NCBI GenBank assembly: GCA_028286245.1
Contig: JAQBRY010000001.1
Coordinates: forward strand, 62,001 to 126,000
Direction of reading: 5' to 3'
Source of the DNA: Candidatus Saccharimonadota bacterium
Lineage (GTDB): Bacteria; Patescibacteriota; Saccharimonadia; Saccharimonadales; UBA4665
Length of the DNA stretch: 64,000 nucleotides
Shown: in pieces, positions 4,153-43,868 of the stretch
Layout of the letters: each line of letters begins with the position of its first letter
Position numbering within the stretch: position 1 is the stretch's first letter
Position numbers and translations under genes: made by a program
Notes under the pieces: generated by a model
What the model was told of the DNA's origin: nothing
The model's database searches: none
What the model saw: only the letters and a program-made list of their open reading frames with translations

Positions 4153-5454
4153 ATGATTGATGACTTTAAGCCGGTTAGGCCCCGGAAGAAGTCTTTGGAA
4201 GCACAAACAAACACCCCATCCAAAGTCGAAACGCCCAAATCAACACCAGAAAGCTTTAAAACGCCTGAACAGGTCGCTGCTAGTGACGCCGTGCCGGCAG
4301 TTGAAGAAACACAGCTAAGCTCGCCGCAGCCAGTGCAGTTTGACGCGCCCGAGCCGGTCAAAAGTGACGCCAAAAAGTCGTTTGCCAGCAGGCTCAAGCT
4401 GACTTGGCCACCGAGTAAAAAAGAAGCTTTGGTGATGCTGGCCGTAATAGTGGTTGTAGGTAGCGGGCTGGGCGGCTTTATCCTCACCCGGCAAGGACCC
4501 GCCCCGGTTGCCGCCGTACCCAAAACCATCGCCAAAAAAGTAGCGCCACCGGCGCCTACCACCGTTGCATCAACGCTCAGTGGGCTCCAAGTAGACCCAT
4601 CCCTTAATGCTCGTCCCGTTACTGCCGTTATGATCGAGAACAGTACCGACGCCCGGCCACAGTCCGGACTAGGGCAGGCGAGCGTGGTTTTTGAAGCCAT
4701 CGCCGAAGGCGGCATCACCCGGTTCTTAACCCTATTCCAAGACACCACGCCAACTGATCTCGGACCGGTTCGTAGCGTCCGGCCGTACTACCTGGAATGG
4801 GCTACGAGTTTTGACGCGCCAATCGCCCATGTGGGTGGCAGCCCGGAGGCCTTAGCCGACATCAAAACCTGGGGCGCAAAAGACCTGGATCAGTTCTTTA
4901 ACGCCGGAGCCTATCACCGTATTACCAGCCGGGCCGCACCACACAATGTTTACACCTCGCTCGATAATTTATTACAGCTCTCGGCAAGCAAGGGATTTAC
5001 CAAGAGCACATTTACCGGCTTTCCACGTAAGGCCGATCAGCCTACAAAAGTTGCACCAACCGAAAAGTCCATTAATTTTGCCATCTCCGGGCCAGATTAC
5101 AACGCACACTACGACTACGACGCTACCTCAAACTCTTACCTGCGTAGTGAGGGTGGTGCTCCGCACATGGACGCCTCTACCAATACACAGATCAGGGCCA
5201 AGGTAGTTATAGGCTTAGTCATTCCATACGCCATCCAGAGCGATGGCAAACACTCGGAATACACCACAGCTGGAGCATCAGGTCAGGCCTACGTGTTTCA
5301 GGACGGCAAGCTGACCATCGGTACCTGGTCTAAGGCTACCCGAACGAGCCAGTTCGTATTTACTGATGCTGCCGGAAAAGTTATTGCGCTTAACGCCGGT
5401 CCTACCTGGTTGACGGCCGTGAGTGCCGCTAACAAAATAACCGCCGCACCCTAA
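4153..5454 (+). CDS. DUF3048 family membrane-anchored protein
   Basis: The chosen ATG at 4153 gives 433 residues; an earlier in-frame ATG at 4114 is rejected because TATAAT (4141-4146), preceded by an extended TGC, sits between the two and exactly 6 nt before 4153. The N-terminal ~80 residues are Pro/Lys-rich and probably cytoplasmic, followed by one transmembrane helix (EALVMLAVIVVVGSGLGGFI). The extracytoplasmic part has the DUF3048 signature (ARPQSGLGQASVVFEAIAEG and GPVRSVRPYYLEWA) found in YerB-like cell-envelope proteins. The family function is not established. It lies 17 bp before a histidine kinase and may be co-transcribed with it. Confidence 0.88.
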   Translation: MIDDFKPVRPRKKSLEAQTNTPSKVETPKSTPESFKTPEQVAASDAVPAVEETQLSSPQPVQFDAPEPVKSDAKKSFASRLKLTWPPSKKEALVMLAVIVVVGSGLGGFILTRQGPAPVAAVPKTIAKKVAPPAPTTVASTLSGLQVDPSLNARPVTAVMIENSTDARPQSGLGQASVVFEAIAEGGITRFLTLFQDTTPTDLGPVRSVRPYYLEWATSFDAPIAHVGGSPEALADIKTWGAKDLDQFFNAGAYHRITSRAAPHNVYTSLDNLLQLSASKGFTKSTFTGFPRKADQPTKVAPTEKSINFAISGPDYNAHYDYDATSNSYLRSEGGAPHMDASTNTQIRAKVVIGLVIPYAIQSDGKHSEYTTAGASGQAYVFQDGKLTIGTWSKATRTSQFVFTDAAGKVIALNAGPTWLTAVSAANKITAAP

Positions 5455-5471: not shown

Positions 5472-7007
5472 ATGGACCATTTCCAGCAAACCTTCAAACA
5501 AATACAGAGTAAAACGTTTTTGTTAGTGCTACTGGAAAACATCGTCATTATTGGCGGCTGGTATCTGCTAGACAGCCTGACCGGCTTAGCACCTTGGTTC
5601 ATTGCCATAATTGTGGCACTGGCAGCAATTGGTCTTGCCGTTGCCGTTAGTAAGCTGGCAGCAATTATCAGCACCGTGCCGCTCAAGGCGCTTTGGCAGT
5701 TAATTGTACACTTGAGTCCCGATCAACAGTCCTCGGTACCACCTAATATTAAAGGTCTTAGGGTGGGCCGGGAGCTTGTCACCAATCTAGCTGGTCAGAT
5801 CTACCAAATAAGCAGCGTTGCCGAAGGCATTGCCAGCGCCGCCCGCAAAGACAGCATTGATATGCATCATAATTTTGTGGCCAATAACTTGCCGCTACCG
5901 CTGCTAGTGCTCGATGCCACCGAGACGGTACAGTTTGCCAACGAGGCCGCTGCCCGCTACATTGGCTCGCCCAGCCAAGATCTGATTGGTAAGAACGTCT
6001 ACATGGTACTCGACATGTCATTCCCGAGTAATGACACCTTTGATAGCTGGCTCAAAGGTGCCAAACAAAATAACGCCACCGCCACCGGAGCTTGGGAACG
6101 AGTTCGGCTGAATGTTCGAGACAATCACCCGACCCGGTTGTTTGATCTGGCAAGCTACTATAATAAGGACAATGCGCTCGGCGCCGAAACTATGCTGGTC
6201 CTCTTTGACCACACCAAGCAATATAGCCAGGACGAGCAAGCTGTCAGCTTTATTGCCCTCAGCGTCCACGAGCTGCGCACGCCACTCACCCTGTTACGAG
6301 GCTACATAGAGGTCTTCGAAGAAGAATTAGCCGACACCAAGGACCCGGAGCTGGCCAGCTTTATGCAAAAGATGAACGCCACTGCCCAACAATTGATGGC
6401 CTTTGTGAACAATATCTTAAATGTTGCCCGAGTAGACGCCGATCAGCTACAGCTGCAACTCCACGAAGAAAACTGGGCAGACGTGCTCAACGAAGCAATC
6501 AGCAATGTTGCGCTCCGCGCCAAAGTCCGCGGCATTAACCTGGAGTGTACCGTAGCGCCCGACCTACCAACCGTCGGAATCGATCGTCTGAGTATCTACG
6601 AAGTTATTAATAACTTGGTCGACAATGCCATCAAGTACAGCGGCTCGAGCGAAGTCATAAAAATCGAGGCCCACCTTACCAAAGACAATATGATAGAAAC
6701 CACCATTCAAGATTACGGCGTCGGTATCTCAAGCAGCGTCATGCCCAACTTGTTTACCAAATTCTACCGCGATCACCGTAACCGGGCTCAGATTGGCGGG
6801 ACCGGCCTGGGATTGTACCTGTCCAAGGCGATTGTTACTGCCCACGGCGGTAATCTTTCGGTGAGCAGTAAAGAGGGTCAGGGCAGTACCTTTGGCTTTA
6901 CGCTTCAACCTTACGGCGCGCTCAGCGCCGAGGATAAAGCCGGCAATAAAGAAATCGTCCGGACGGCTCACGGCTGGATCAAAAACCACTCCATGTACCG
7001 CCGCTAA
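5472..7007 (+). CDS. Membrane sensor histidine kinase
   Basis: 511 residues. Two transmembrane helices (about 15-36 and 41-66), a PAS-like sensor region (about 135-245), then a HisKA dimerisation domain with the phospho-acceptor in SVHELRTPL (His266). A HATPase_c domain follows, with N box (NNLVDNAIKYS), G1 (DYGVGI) and G2 (GGTGLGLYLSKAIV). It would autophosphorylate and pass phosphate to the lone receiver encoded 42 bp downstream. It follows the DUF3048 gene by 17 bp with no Shine-Dalgarno and a C-rich upstream sequence, so its start is less certain than its identity. The signal sensed is unknown. Confidence 0.95.
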   Translation: MDHFQQTFKQIQSKTFLLVLLENIVIIGGWYLLDSLTGLAPWFIAIIVALAAIGLAVAVSKLAAIISTVPLKALWQLIVHLSPDQQSSVPPNIKGLRVGRELVTNLAGQIYQISSVAEGIASAARKDSIDMHHNFVANNLPLPLLVLDATETVQFANEAAARYIGSPSQDLIGKNVYMVLDMSFPSNDTFDSWLKGAKQNNATATGAWERVRLNVRDNHPTRLFDLASYYNKDNALGAETMLVLFDHTKQYSQDEQAVSFIALSVHELRTPLTLLRGYIEVFEEELADTKDPELASFMQKMNATAQQLMAFVNNILNVARVDADQLQLQLHEENWADVLNEAISNVALRAKVRGINLECTVAPDLPTVGIDRLSIYEVINNLVDNAIKYSGSSEVIKIEAHLTKDNMIETTIQDYGVGISSSVMPNLFTKFYRDHRNRAQIGGTGLGLYLSKAIVTAHGGNLSVSSKEGQGSTFGFTLQPYGALSAEDKAGNKEIVRTAHGWIKNHSMYRR

Positions 7008-7860: not shown

Positions 7861-8163
7861 ATGACTATTTCTTATTACGATCAAGACACCCCGACTATTA
7901 ACGGTGAGCACGATGTTGAGGTAACAGCCCTCTATTTCCGAAACGCGCGCGGCACCCGCAAGGAGCACTTAGAAAGCTACCCTCGCCGCATGGTGTACGA
8001 GGGCCGCGAGTACAACTTTTTAGAATCCGGCATGCACTATCTGGTCCAAAAAGGTCAGCAGCTTATTAAACTCTTCGACGTCTCTGATGGCAATACCCAG
8101 TACCGCCTGCGCTTGGAAGACAATCGCTGGACACTGATTGGCACCCGGAACTTGAGTTTCTAA
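7861..8163 (+). CDS. Hypothetical protein, first gene of umuDC-like operon
   Basis: The start at 7861 is set by AAGGAG (7848-7853), 7 nt upstream; the ATG at 7855 is too close to it. It gives a 100-residue acidic/basic mixed protein (MTISYYDQDT, ending LIGTRNLSF) with predicted beta strands, no membrane segment or signal peptide. I do not recognise a family. Its TAA overlaps the ATG of the next gene by one base, so it is translationally linked to the UmuD-like and UmuC-like genes. A role in regulating or assembling that translesion polymerase is a context inference only. Confidence 0.75.
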   Translation: MTISYYDQDTPTINGEHDVEVTALYFRNARGTRKEHLESYPRRMVYEGREYNFLESGMHYLVQKGQQLIKLFDVSDGNTQYRLRLEDNRWTLIGTRNLSF

Positions 8164-8534
8164 TGGACCAAGACAACTTACAGGCGCTGGCCGATAGCGG
8201 CGCCGTCAGTCTGCATAGCGGCTTTCCTAATCCGGCACTCGACCGGCTAGGTCAGGGAACTAAACTGGCGCTCGATCTAAACCAAATCTTTATCCAGCAC
8301 CCCAGTAGTACCTACCTATTCCGGGTTGCCGGACATGGCCACGAAAACTATGGCCTCTACGACGGCGATGTGGCCATTATAGACCGCAGCCTCCAGCCTA
8401 GGGCCAATGACCTGGTGCTAGCCTGGCAGGCCGCTGGCTTTATCATCTGTTCCTACAGTCATCTTAATAAACAGTTCGACAGCCTGTGGGGCGTGGTCAG
8501 TACCACCATTCACCGGCGGCGGCAGTCAGTATGA
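8163..8534 (+). CDS. UmuD-like protein lacking catalytic Ser and Lys
   Basis: 123 residues aligning by eye along E. coli UmuD: SGFPNPALD at the cleavage region, LDLNQIFIQHPSSTYLFRV, YGLYDGDVAIID, and a terminal FDSLWGVV block. The S24-peptidase residues are altered. Where UmuD has GDSM with nucleophile Ser60, this protein has GHGH (residues 57-60), and where UmuD has Lys97 it has Cys (FIICSYS). The Cys-Gly cleavage site reads Ser-Gly. It therefore should not self-cleave. It overlaps the UmuC gene by 4 bp (ATGA) and probably serves as a structural partner of that polymerase. Confidence 0.82.
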   Translation: MDQDNLQALADSGAVSLHSGFPNPALDRLGQGTKLALDLNQIFIQHPSSTYLFRVAGHGHENYGLYDGDVAIIDRSLQPRANDLVLAWQAAGFIICSYSHLNKQFDSLWGVVSTTIHRRRQSV

Positions 8535-43111: not shown

Positions 43112-43411
43112 CTAGCGACGAGCGAGGCGAGCCCACCGCTCGGAAATTTCCGGCGCGCAGAGCTTATCGACTGTGCTACTGTATATGCTCAACCAAGCTG
43201 CTTGCAATAACTGTTGGCGGCGGTGCTCAGCCGCAACTGGATTGGTCTCTTGATCTAGTTCATAGCCCGCTTCCGCTACTAAATTTTCAGCATCGGTGCT
43301 TAAGGCATCTGCCTTTTTGAGCGCATCGCTGACGAGGGCGGTTTCTTTTACACCATACAGTAACACTTCAGTGGGATTACTAATTATAAAATCACCATTT
43401 CTACCTACCAT
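43112..43411 (-). CDS. Small hypothetical protein
   Basis: 99 residues, helical (VSDALKKADALSTDAENLVAEAGYEL, HRRQQLLQAAWLSIYSSTVDKL), soluble, no recognised family. AGGAG lies 6 nt before the ATG and a TAAAAT-type -10 further upstream. It is on the same strand as, and just downstream of, the ncRNA candidate terminator, and convergent with pth. Confidence 0.68.
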   Translation of the reverse strand: MVGRNGDFIISNPTEVLLYGVKETALVSDALKKADALSTDAENLVAEAGYELDQETNPVAAEHRRQQLLQAAWLSIYSSTVDKLCAPEISERWARLARR

Positions 43412-43454: not shown

Positions 43455-43496
43455 AAAAAAGGCCATCGAGAGGGGGTGGGCACCGCTCGACGGCCT
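43455..43496 (-). terminator. Intrinsic terminator of ncRNA
   Basis: Stem between 43486-43495 and 43461-43470 (one G-U pair, extendable by an A-T) with a 15-nt loop, followed on the minus strand by six T (43455-43460). Confidence 0.88.
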
Positions 43497-43833
43497 ATTT
43501 CAGAAGAGAATCCACCGAAGTGAATTCTCTTCATACCCTTCAACCCACCCGAACGAAGCATCGATGTCTATAATCAAATGACTCGTGCCAGACCCGGAGG
43601 TCTACCATTTAGGCTCGCTTTGAATTCGGGACCTCACTCTAAGCGTGGGGATTAGTTAAAGGGGTTAGTATGTTTTAGAGCGTGCCCAGGCTTTATGCCG
43701 GGGCGTTTAAGAAAAAGTGGAGGGTAACAACTAGTTCATAAGCGCTCTAAAACACTCTAACGATGTTTAACCCTTGCGGATTAAACGTTAGATTGGGGTA
43801 AAAGGTGCGGAATTCTACTTAGAGAACTCATAG
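43455..43833 (-). ncRNA. Candidate ~380-nt structured ncRNA with own promoter and terminator
   Basis: No ORF of useful length occupies this stretch. On the minus strand TTGACA (43863-43868), 17 bp, extended TGC and TAAAAT (43840-43845) form a near-consensus promoter placing the start near 43833. The transcript contains stable elements: CTAACG/CGTTAG closing TTTAATCC-GCAA-GGGTTAAA; GTTTTAGAGCG pairing with CGCTCTAAAAC about 60 nt apart; AGACC/GGTCT; and a 13-bp hairpin capped by TTCG. It ends in a GGCCGTCGAG/CTCGATGGCC stem plus T6. I could not match it to tmRNA, RNase P, SRP or 6S consensus. Confidence 0.72.
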
Positions 43834-43839
43834 TTTGCT

Positions 43840-43868
43840 ATTTTAGCAAAAGCATTACATATTGTCAA
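43840..43868 (-). promoter_or_regulatory. Near-consensus sigma-70 promoter for ncRNA
   Basis: Minus strand: TTGACA at 43863-43868, 17-bp spacer, TAAAAT at 43840-43845, preceded by the extended TGC. One of the best -35/-10 matches in the window; predicts strong, probably constitutive expression. Confidence 0.85.

Follow-up and report, generated by a model that had tools for sequence, protein, structure and literature searches.

A structured noncoding RNA encoded in Saccharimonadales genomes carries a 3' terminator hairpin whose apex recurs in hairpins of viral contigs. The RNA represents a previously undescribed family, and both the family and its mimicry by phages are well supported. Sequence comparison establishes the RNA together with its predicted promoter and helices, its synteny, and its distribution. 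As an explanation of the whole, the balance tips modestly toward an order-specific, trans-acting noncoding RNA whose 3' hairpin is targeted by phage RNA decoys.

Promoter and extent of the RNA gene

The window analyzed here is a 64,000-nt stretch of a 1.13-Mb Saccharimonadales genome (G000). An earlier note on this DNA had described a near-consensus minus-strand promoter with a 17-bp spacer, a stretch without a usable ORF behind it, and a GC-rich terminator stem followed by T6, and all three were recovered. The promoter (43840..43868, minus strand) combines TTGACA at 43868-43863, a 17-nt spacer with an extended -10 TG, and TAAAAT at 43845-43840, which amounts to 11 of 12 consensus matches. The pattern TTGAC[ACT]-16/17-TANNNT is present in all 105 non-redundant homologues, 104 of which also have the TG. 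Transcription from this promoter would begin about 7 nt past the -10 box and yield an RNA of ~379 nt (43455..43833, minus strand) that ends in the T-run; the terminator stem occupies 43496-43460 on the same strand, and the T-run reaches 43455. No usable ORF was found inside the RNA, the longest one listed being 41 aa. Behind the RNA lies a 99-aa ORF (43112-43411, minus strand), to which a single close relative (L006) has a 34% match.

Secondary structure and covariation

The strong structure expected from several apparent stems was confirmed by folding a 384-nt stretch, which gave a minimum free energy (MFE) of -145.5 kcal/mol compared to -99.1 +/- 5.65 for 100 dinucleotide shuffles (z = -8.2). 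At the 5' end, a hairpin of variable sequence (43810..43829, minus strand, as are all features of the RNA below) appears in both the MFE and centroid structures and is paired in the alignment consensus. It is followed by the conserved pyrimidine-rich strand GCACCUUUUACCCC (43795..43808), which reads GYACCUUAUACCCC in relatives, and by a CUAAC segment (43787..43791) that can compete with a second, 3' CUAAC for pairing to GUUAG at 43761-43757. All three segments are conserved, so that both CUAAC copies are rivals for one GUUAG, and the competing pairings could constitute a switch or a folding intermediate.

The central helix P4 is formed by a 5' part (43743..43761), consisting of GUUAG and the strand UGUUUUAGAGCG (43754-43743), and a 3' part (43664..43682), in which alignment A1 places the P4 3' strand at 43682-43671 and the 3' CUAAC at 43668-43664. 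The long-range pairing claimed in the earlier note, GUUUUAGAGCG/CGCUCUAAAAC, corresponds to 43754-43743 with 43682-43671 and is indeed present; 99.2% of the alignment cells of P4 are paired, and double-sided changes occur in seven pairs. The conserved loop motif GUUGUUACCCUCCACUU (43715..43731) is near-invariant in A1, and its counterpart in family f26 is CUACCCUCCACUU. Across the 70 sequences of A1, which covers the central helix and the loop stem, 96.7% of cells pair and 10 of 22 pairs show double-sided changes. None of 500 shuffles reached any of these measures, and slid partners paired in 31-51% of cells.

The core is closed by a long-range helix between CCCUUUAAC (43655..43663) and GUUGAAGGG (43536..43544). 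A compensatory change from C-G to G-C was observed in 12 sequences along with further U-A/C-G changes, the compensated versions including CCCUUUAAG:CUUGAAGGG and CUCUUCAAC:GUUGAAGAG. These counts are conservative, since automatic picking of the helix strands misplaced a strand in approximately 15 of 123 sequences. The single-sequence MFE had suggested ACCUUUUACCC as the 5' partner of GUUGAAGGG; it was dropped in favor of CCCUUUAAC because the latter co-varies with GUUGAAGGG.

Covariation in the relatives, which had been proposed as a check, exceeded not only the shuffled and slid controls but also a tree-aware null of our own design, applied to MAFFT alignments uncurated by hand. Seventeen column pairs exceeded every value of this null, some of them being cross-links of neighboring pairs in the terminator stem. 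They fall in the terminator stem, where they include consecutive pairs, in the hairpin AGACC/GGUCU (43590..43603; pairs 43603-43590 and 43602-43591), and in the helix GGCAC...GAUGC (43558..43588; pair 43588-43558). A hairpin of 13 bp with a UUCG loop, also noted earlier, does exist at 43503..43532 but is not a constant part of the RNA: this segment differs between species, varies in length, and is missing from some homologues.

The terminator hairpin (43460..43496) has the strongest covariation in the RNA and a fold z of -5.6. At its tip is the apical element GCGGUGCCCACCCCCUC (43470..43486) with the 9-nt loop UGCCCACCC, the portion common to the phage hairpins; the common, f1-type form of this element is GCGGTGCCCACCCCCTC. 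The terminator loop sequence CCCACCC is complementary to a GGGUGGG strand (43544..43550) just 5' of GUUGAAGGG, and GGUGGG or GGGUGG was found in at least 105 of the 123 scored homologues, several of the exceptions being mis-located matches. The two strands may form a pseudoknot or a kissing contact; because both are near-invariant, the argument for this contact is their complementarity. A resemblance of GUUUUAGAGC to the start of a type II CRISPR repeat was dismissed as coincidence, because f26 carries an unrelated stem at that place.

Relation to known RNA families

The earlier note had left the choice between a divergent housekeeping RNA and a new one, and the searches decide for a new one. 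No Rfam 15 family matched the RNA at its gathering score and none was credible at E <= 10; the best match, rsmX (14.1 bits versus the 56 needed, E 4.6), is a chance match. In the literature searched, no RNA of this kind is described.

The length, the single copy, and the order-wide conservation would suit a divergent RNase P RNA, tmRNA, SRP RNA, or 6S RNA. However, the genome encodes its RNase P RNA (RF00010; C3:20405-20764, 253 bits) and its tmRNA (C2:49539-49942, 48.8 bits, just above the cut-off) elsewhere, and ARAGORN detected no tmRNA in the window, in line with the absence of tmRNA, RNase P, and SRP features reported earlier. Rfam gave no SRP RNA match in the window, and the conserved blocks of the RNA lack a GNRA/AGCA motif. 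No 6S RNA (RF00013) match was obtained for the RNA or anywhere in this genome, and the multi-helix consensus structure is unlike 6S RNA, which forms one long hairpin interrupted by a central bubble. Identity with one of these known housekeeping RNAs is thus highly improbable.

SRP RNA was also considered as a missing housekeeping RNA and set aside, given the lack of the motif and a whole-genome motif scan that returned only chance-like sites. SRP RNA (RF00169/RF01854) was detected in none of the Saccharimonadales genomes searched, 13 with the small model and 9 with the large one, and a crude scan of G000 for a pair of GTPase motifs of the Ffh/FtsY type came back empty. These genomes may lack the SRP pathway, and nothing here indicates that this RNA replaces SRP RNA. 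A relative (G037) has a weak 6S match (L037:1501-1654, 32 bits, below the cut-off) close to its RNase P RNA.

Distribution and genomic context

A DNA search for homologues, the collection of which was another check proposed in the earlier note, matched 51 of 60 relatives, and 105 non-redundant homologues could be aligned. A pattern scan of 85,000 species yielded more than 100 loci, nearly all in Saccharibacteria, with a profile telling real copies from GC-rich chance matches. Using a covariance model of the central helix with strict filters, we detected the RNA in 170 of the 247 genomes of the order, representing 106 of 133 genera, and in none of 265 other Patescibacteria genomes. In one genome, two central-domain copies score equally (G365:C4:35617-35721 and G365:C9:87725-87829), as a result of either duplication or assembly overlap. 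One locus, L049:94-556, carries the RNA flanked by der and pth in a bin named Parcubacteria that is probably misnamed or mixed.

The gene neighborhood is conserved: in 39 of the 40 testable loci, the RNA is flanked by dprA or topA at one end and by pth or der at the opposite end. At 14 of the 40, topA is present without an adjoining dprA, and therefore the RNA is not tied to dprA. These surroundings also bear on a reading of the RNA as a cis-acting leader or attenuator of the 99-aa ORF with CUAAC/GUUAG/CUAAC as its switch. The ORF begins about 45 nt past the terminator on the same strand, and the three mutually exclusive segments are conserved, as such a reading would have it. In contrast, the ORF has no Pfam match, few homologous ORFs lie downstream in relatives, and in many relatives pth comes next, in convergent orientation and at distances ranging from several to several hundred nucleotides. 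Because the RNA persists at loci without a gene in the same direction behind it, we regard a leader function as very unlikely.

In family f26, the RNA initially seemed to be missing but was located at the usual site; its P4 stems differ there, and its apex takes a second form, GTGATGCCCACCCTTAC. In this host apex (GUGAUGCCCACCCUUAC), the 9-nt loop UGCCCACCC is unchanged and the closing pairs differ (A4-U14, U2-A16). The GTGATGCCCACCCTTAC apex is also borne by family f151 (G340, G361); thus, the two forms are not split strictly between f26 and all other families. The apical pattern was found in 239 of 295 host genomes and twice in none of them, while the reversed control pattern was never found.

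Phage hairpins carrying the apical element

The link to phages, absent from the earlier note, emerged when a scan for the terminator apex matched viral contigs, each time in a hairpin. In a wider scan, the exact f1-type 17-mer was present in 36 viral contigs, 34 of which have stems of at least 5 bp around it; these stems are mostly unrelated, with 32 distinct arms among 33 tallied. One- and two-base variants of this 17-mer have stems in only 4 of 47 cases, including L249, where the paired change G3C/C15G keeps the pair, and L238, where the change gives a G-U. The second apex of f26 led us to predict phages with the f26 form, which were then searched for: the f26-type 17-mer occurs in 38 viral contigs, in 35 of them in hairpins whose stems are again mostly unrelated. 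We infer that the contigs with these hairpins infect Saccharimonadales. The viral sets were gathered by the loop itself and many of the contigs are fragments, and loop identity within a set therefore does not count as independent evidence; the stems, the f26 prediction, and the exchange of loops described below do.

Each of 48 virus records has a single occurrence of the apical pattern; L187 has two and L398 has none. A T-run follows 10 of 33 f1-type and 8 of 35 f26-type hairpins, so most are not terminator-like. Among 31 f26-type and 32 f1-type hairpins, 10 and 5, respectively, have a -10 box (at least 5 of 6 positions) at a distance of 10-16 nt ahead of the loop, compared to 2-3% of control sites, and a 6/6 TATAAT lies just upstream of 5 of 31 f26-type hairpins versus 0.4% of control sites; some of the -10 boxes overlap stop codons.

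Intrinsic terminators are hairpins, and a generic terminator style common to phages and hosts, or plain chance, might in principle produce such likeness. The controls already contradict this: a composition-matched scramble had no viral match, a one-base variant of the first form had a single one without a convincing stem, and variants are mostly without stems. Moreover, most phage hairpins lack a T-run and there is exactly one per genome, leaving chance or a shared terminator style with a negligible probability. Phage att cores are often located at RNA genes, which raises the possibility that phages attach at the terminator region, with the apex as a common att core. Such an origin is very improbable, as the stems differ between phages and hosts and among phages, with the apical element alone in common; furthermore, the phage hairpins sit in structural operons, an extra copy was found in none of 295 host genomes, no host shows a prophage boundary at the locus, and the neighbors are kept at all but one of the testable loci.

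Several other searches were less informative. Relatives of the phage terminases in host genomes are only distant (22-31%), and a terminase search for prophages was set aside as host evidence for that reason; the absence of a second hairpin copy from the 295 host genomes also weighs against the assignment of the contigs to these hosts. BLAST of the N-flanked loop against named phages gave no match, the query being probably below its sensitivity. The 14-mer GGTGGGTTGAAGGG is too short for a viral marker, and among the matches listed most are due to chance. The phage 17-mers GTTGTTACCCTCCACTT were likewise rejected: 16 of 18 viral matches are without any sign of the RNA, most of the 16 being one recurring sequence of unrelated phages, and the exceptions are L187 and L398.

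Loop exchange and larger phage copies

On the phage side, the hairpins, their specificity, and an exchange of loops are established at the level of nucleotide sequence. Eight related phages with the common form, as well as L249, have the hairpin in the gap that separates a small gene from the structural gene behind it, where it precedes a second hairpin, a Shine-Dalgarno sequence, and an ATG; the same arrangement is seen in L459. At this intergenic site, L459 has the f26 form where its relatives have the common form; its portal and terminase proteins are 57-63% and 72-75% identical to theirs. No other single argument speaks as strongly as this exchange for a loop under selection to match the version of the host.

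Two viral contigs appear to carry more than a hairpin. L187, a 38-kb contig with genes for RecT, an FtsK-like protein, and a DNA methyltransferase, bears the entire RNA with promoter and terminator (7913-8381, plus strand) and, separately, a hairpin with the same apex on the opposite strand (6863-6879, minus strand). L398 encodes what looks, in this one sequence, like a mini-version of the RNA near position 4666 of the reverse complement. It begins with TTTGCTAGAAT and a hairpin, continues with GCACCTT and a stem around GTTGTTACCCTCCACTT, and closes with a terminator whose stem contains UACCCUCC and its complement; the promoter-like start, GCACCTT, and the CU-rich loop are shared with the RNA.

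The main rival to decoys accepts the same RNA and a shared partner but takes the phage hairpins as cis elements that borrow a host RNA-binding protein for the stability, processing, termination, or translation of phage mRNAs. It would be suited by the one intergenic place between structural genes that the eight phages, L249, and L459 keep, by the hairpin of L166/L176 inside an ORF, and by the terminator-like character of about a quarter of the hairpins; the first two observations speak against decoys. On the other hand, the phages carry one copy each at varying places beside unrelated genes, some copies have their own -10 box just upstream, the hairpins of L472 and L477 are flanked by genes on the opposite strand, and L187 also bears the whole RNA. 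We consider the cis role the less likely of the two. The single copy per phage, the unrelated neighboring genes, and the whole or shortened copies of the RNA make a trans-acting decoy the best-fitting alternative.

Proposed function of the RNA and its phage mimics

Under the favored explanation, a single-copy noncoding RNA would have a strong promoter to itself and rely on an intrinsic terminator for its 3' end. Its predicted architecture comprises a core closed by the CCCUUUAAC:GUUGAAGGG helix, a long central helix with the conserved CU-rich loop, and the 3' terminator hairpin, the loop of which (UGCCCACCC) is probably bound by the neighboring GGGUGGG strand, by an RNA-binding protein of the host, or by both. 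Such an RNA would act in trans as a regulator or as an RNP scaffold. Its pyrimidine-rich strands, one with an anti-Shine-Dalgarno core, would fit translation regulation or RNP assembly, which is speculation. The phages appear to encode hairpins with the apical element in the version of their host's family, and individual phages the complete RNA or what looks like a mini-version. The hairpins most likely compete in trans, as RNA decoys, for the partner of the 3' hairpin. The patterns described above suggest that the mimics interfere with this binding partner or borrow it; the partner, the direction of the effect, and the cellular role are our inferences.

A bolder reading, to which we give tentative credence a little short of even, makes the RNA the core of a previously unrecognized RNA-based system, whether for antiviral defense or for global regulation that phages have to disable, with family-matched decoys of the 3' hairpin in phages and a whole or shortened RNA in single ones.

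Saccharibacteria are epibionts of other bacteria and are common in the human mouth, soil, and water; to our knowledge, few of their regulators and few of their phages have been described. An order-wide RNA without a known relative, the 3' hairpin of which is copied in the matching host version, offers a handle on a host-phage conflict or a shared dependence. The apex can serve to recognize phages of these hosts by sequence, and the RNA is a testable target in cultured members.

Comparison with known systems

Among lineage-restricted RNAs, OLE, GOLLD, and ROOL are large and highly structured, and GOLLD and ROOL also occur in phages. The present RNA is similarly large, highly structured, and confined to some lineages, but it has no Rfam match to them and differs in size, architecture, and syntenic host locus. 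The raiA RNAs are conserved bacterial noncoding RNAs, the known ones being located close to competence-related genes. The present RNA is likewise conserved and often adjoins dprA; however, it does not match the raiA motif in Rfam, and dprA is not adjoining at the 14 testable loci mentioned above. C-rich loops are typical of regulatory RNAs such as Staphylococcus aureus RNAIII and Helicobacter pylori RepG. Here too, there are conserved C-rich single strands, a terminator loop rich in C that could bind G-rich sites, and a central loop containing CCUCC, the anti-Shine-Dalgarno core. No sequence relation to RNAIII or RepG was found, and in the present case the C-rich loop has a complement within the same RNA.

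The nearest known concept is the phage RNA mimicry of CRISPR repeats (PMC10651486). The RNA anti-CRISPRs (Racrs) are solitary phage copies of a host RNA hairpin, often right behind a promoter, and this host-matched mimicry sequesters host proteins (PMC10651486). The phage hairpins described here also copy a host RNA element; only a minority of them (10 of 31 f26-type and 5 of 32 f1-type) have a -10 box upstream, in some cases one overlapping a stop codon. In contrast to the Racrs, the mimicked RNA is a chromosomal, order-wide noncoding RNA rather than a CRISPR repeat, no Cas protein is implied, and the inhibitor action is putative. Phage pseudo-ToxI RNAs directed against ToxIN, as cited in the same article (PMC10651486), are another instance of a phage RNA mimicking a host RNA; ToxI differs in being a short antitoxin RNA, repeated and encoded beside a toxin gene, an arrangement without a counterpart at the present locus. 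The biochemical mode may prove to be of a known type, and the novelty lies in the combination of the RNA family with its mimicry by phages, which suggests that phage RNA mimicry reaches beyond CRISPR repeats and antitoxin RNAs.
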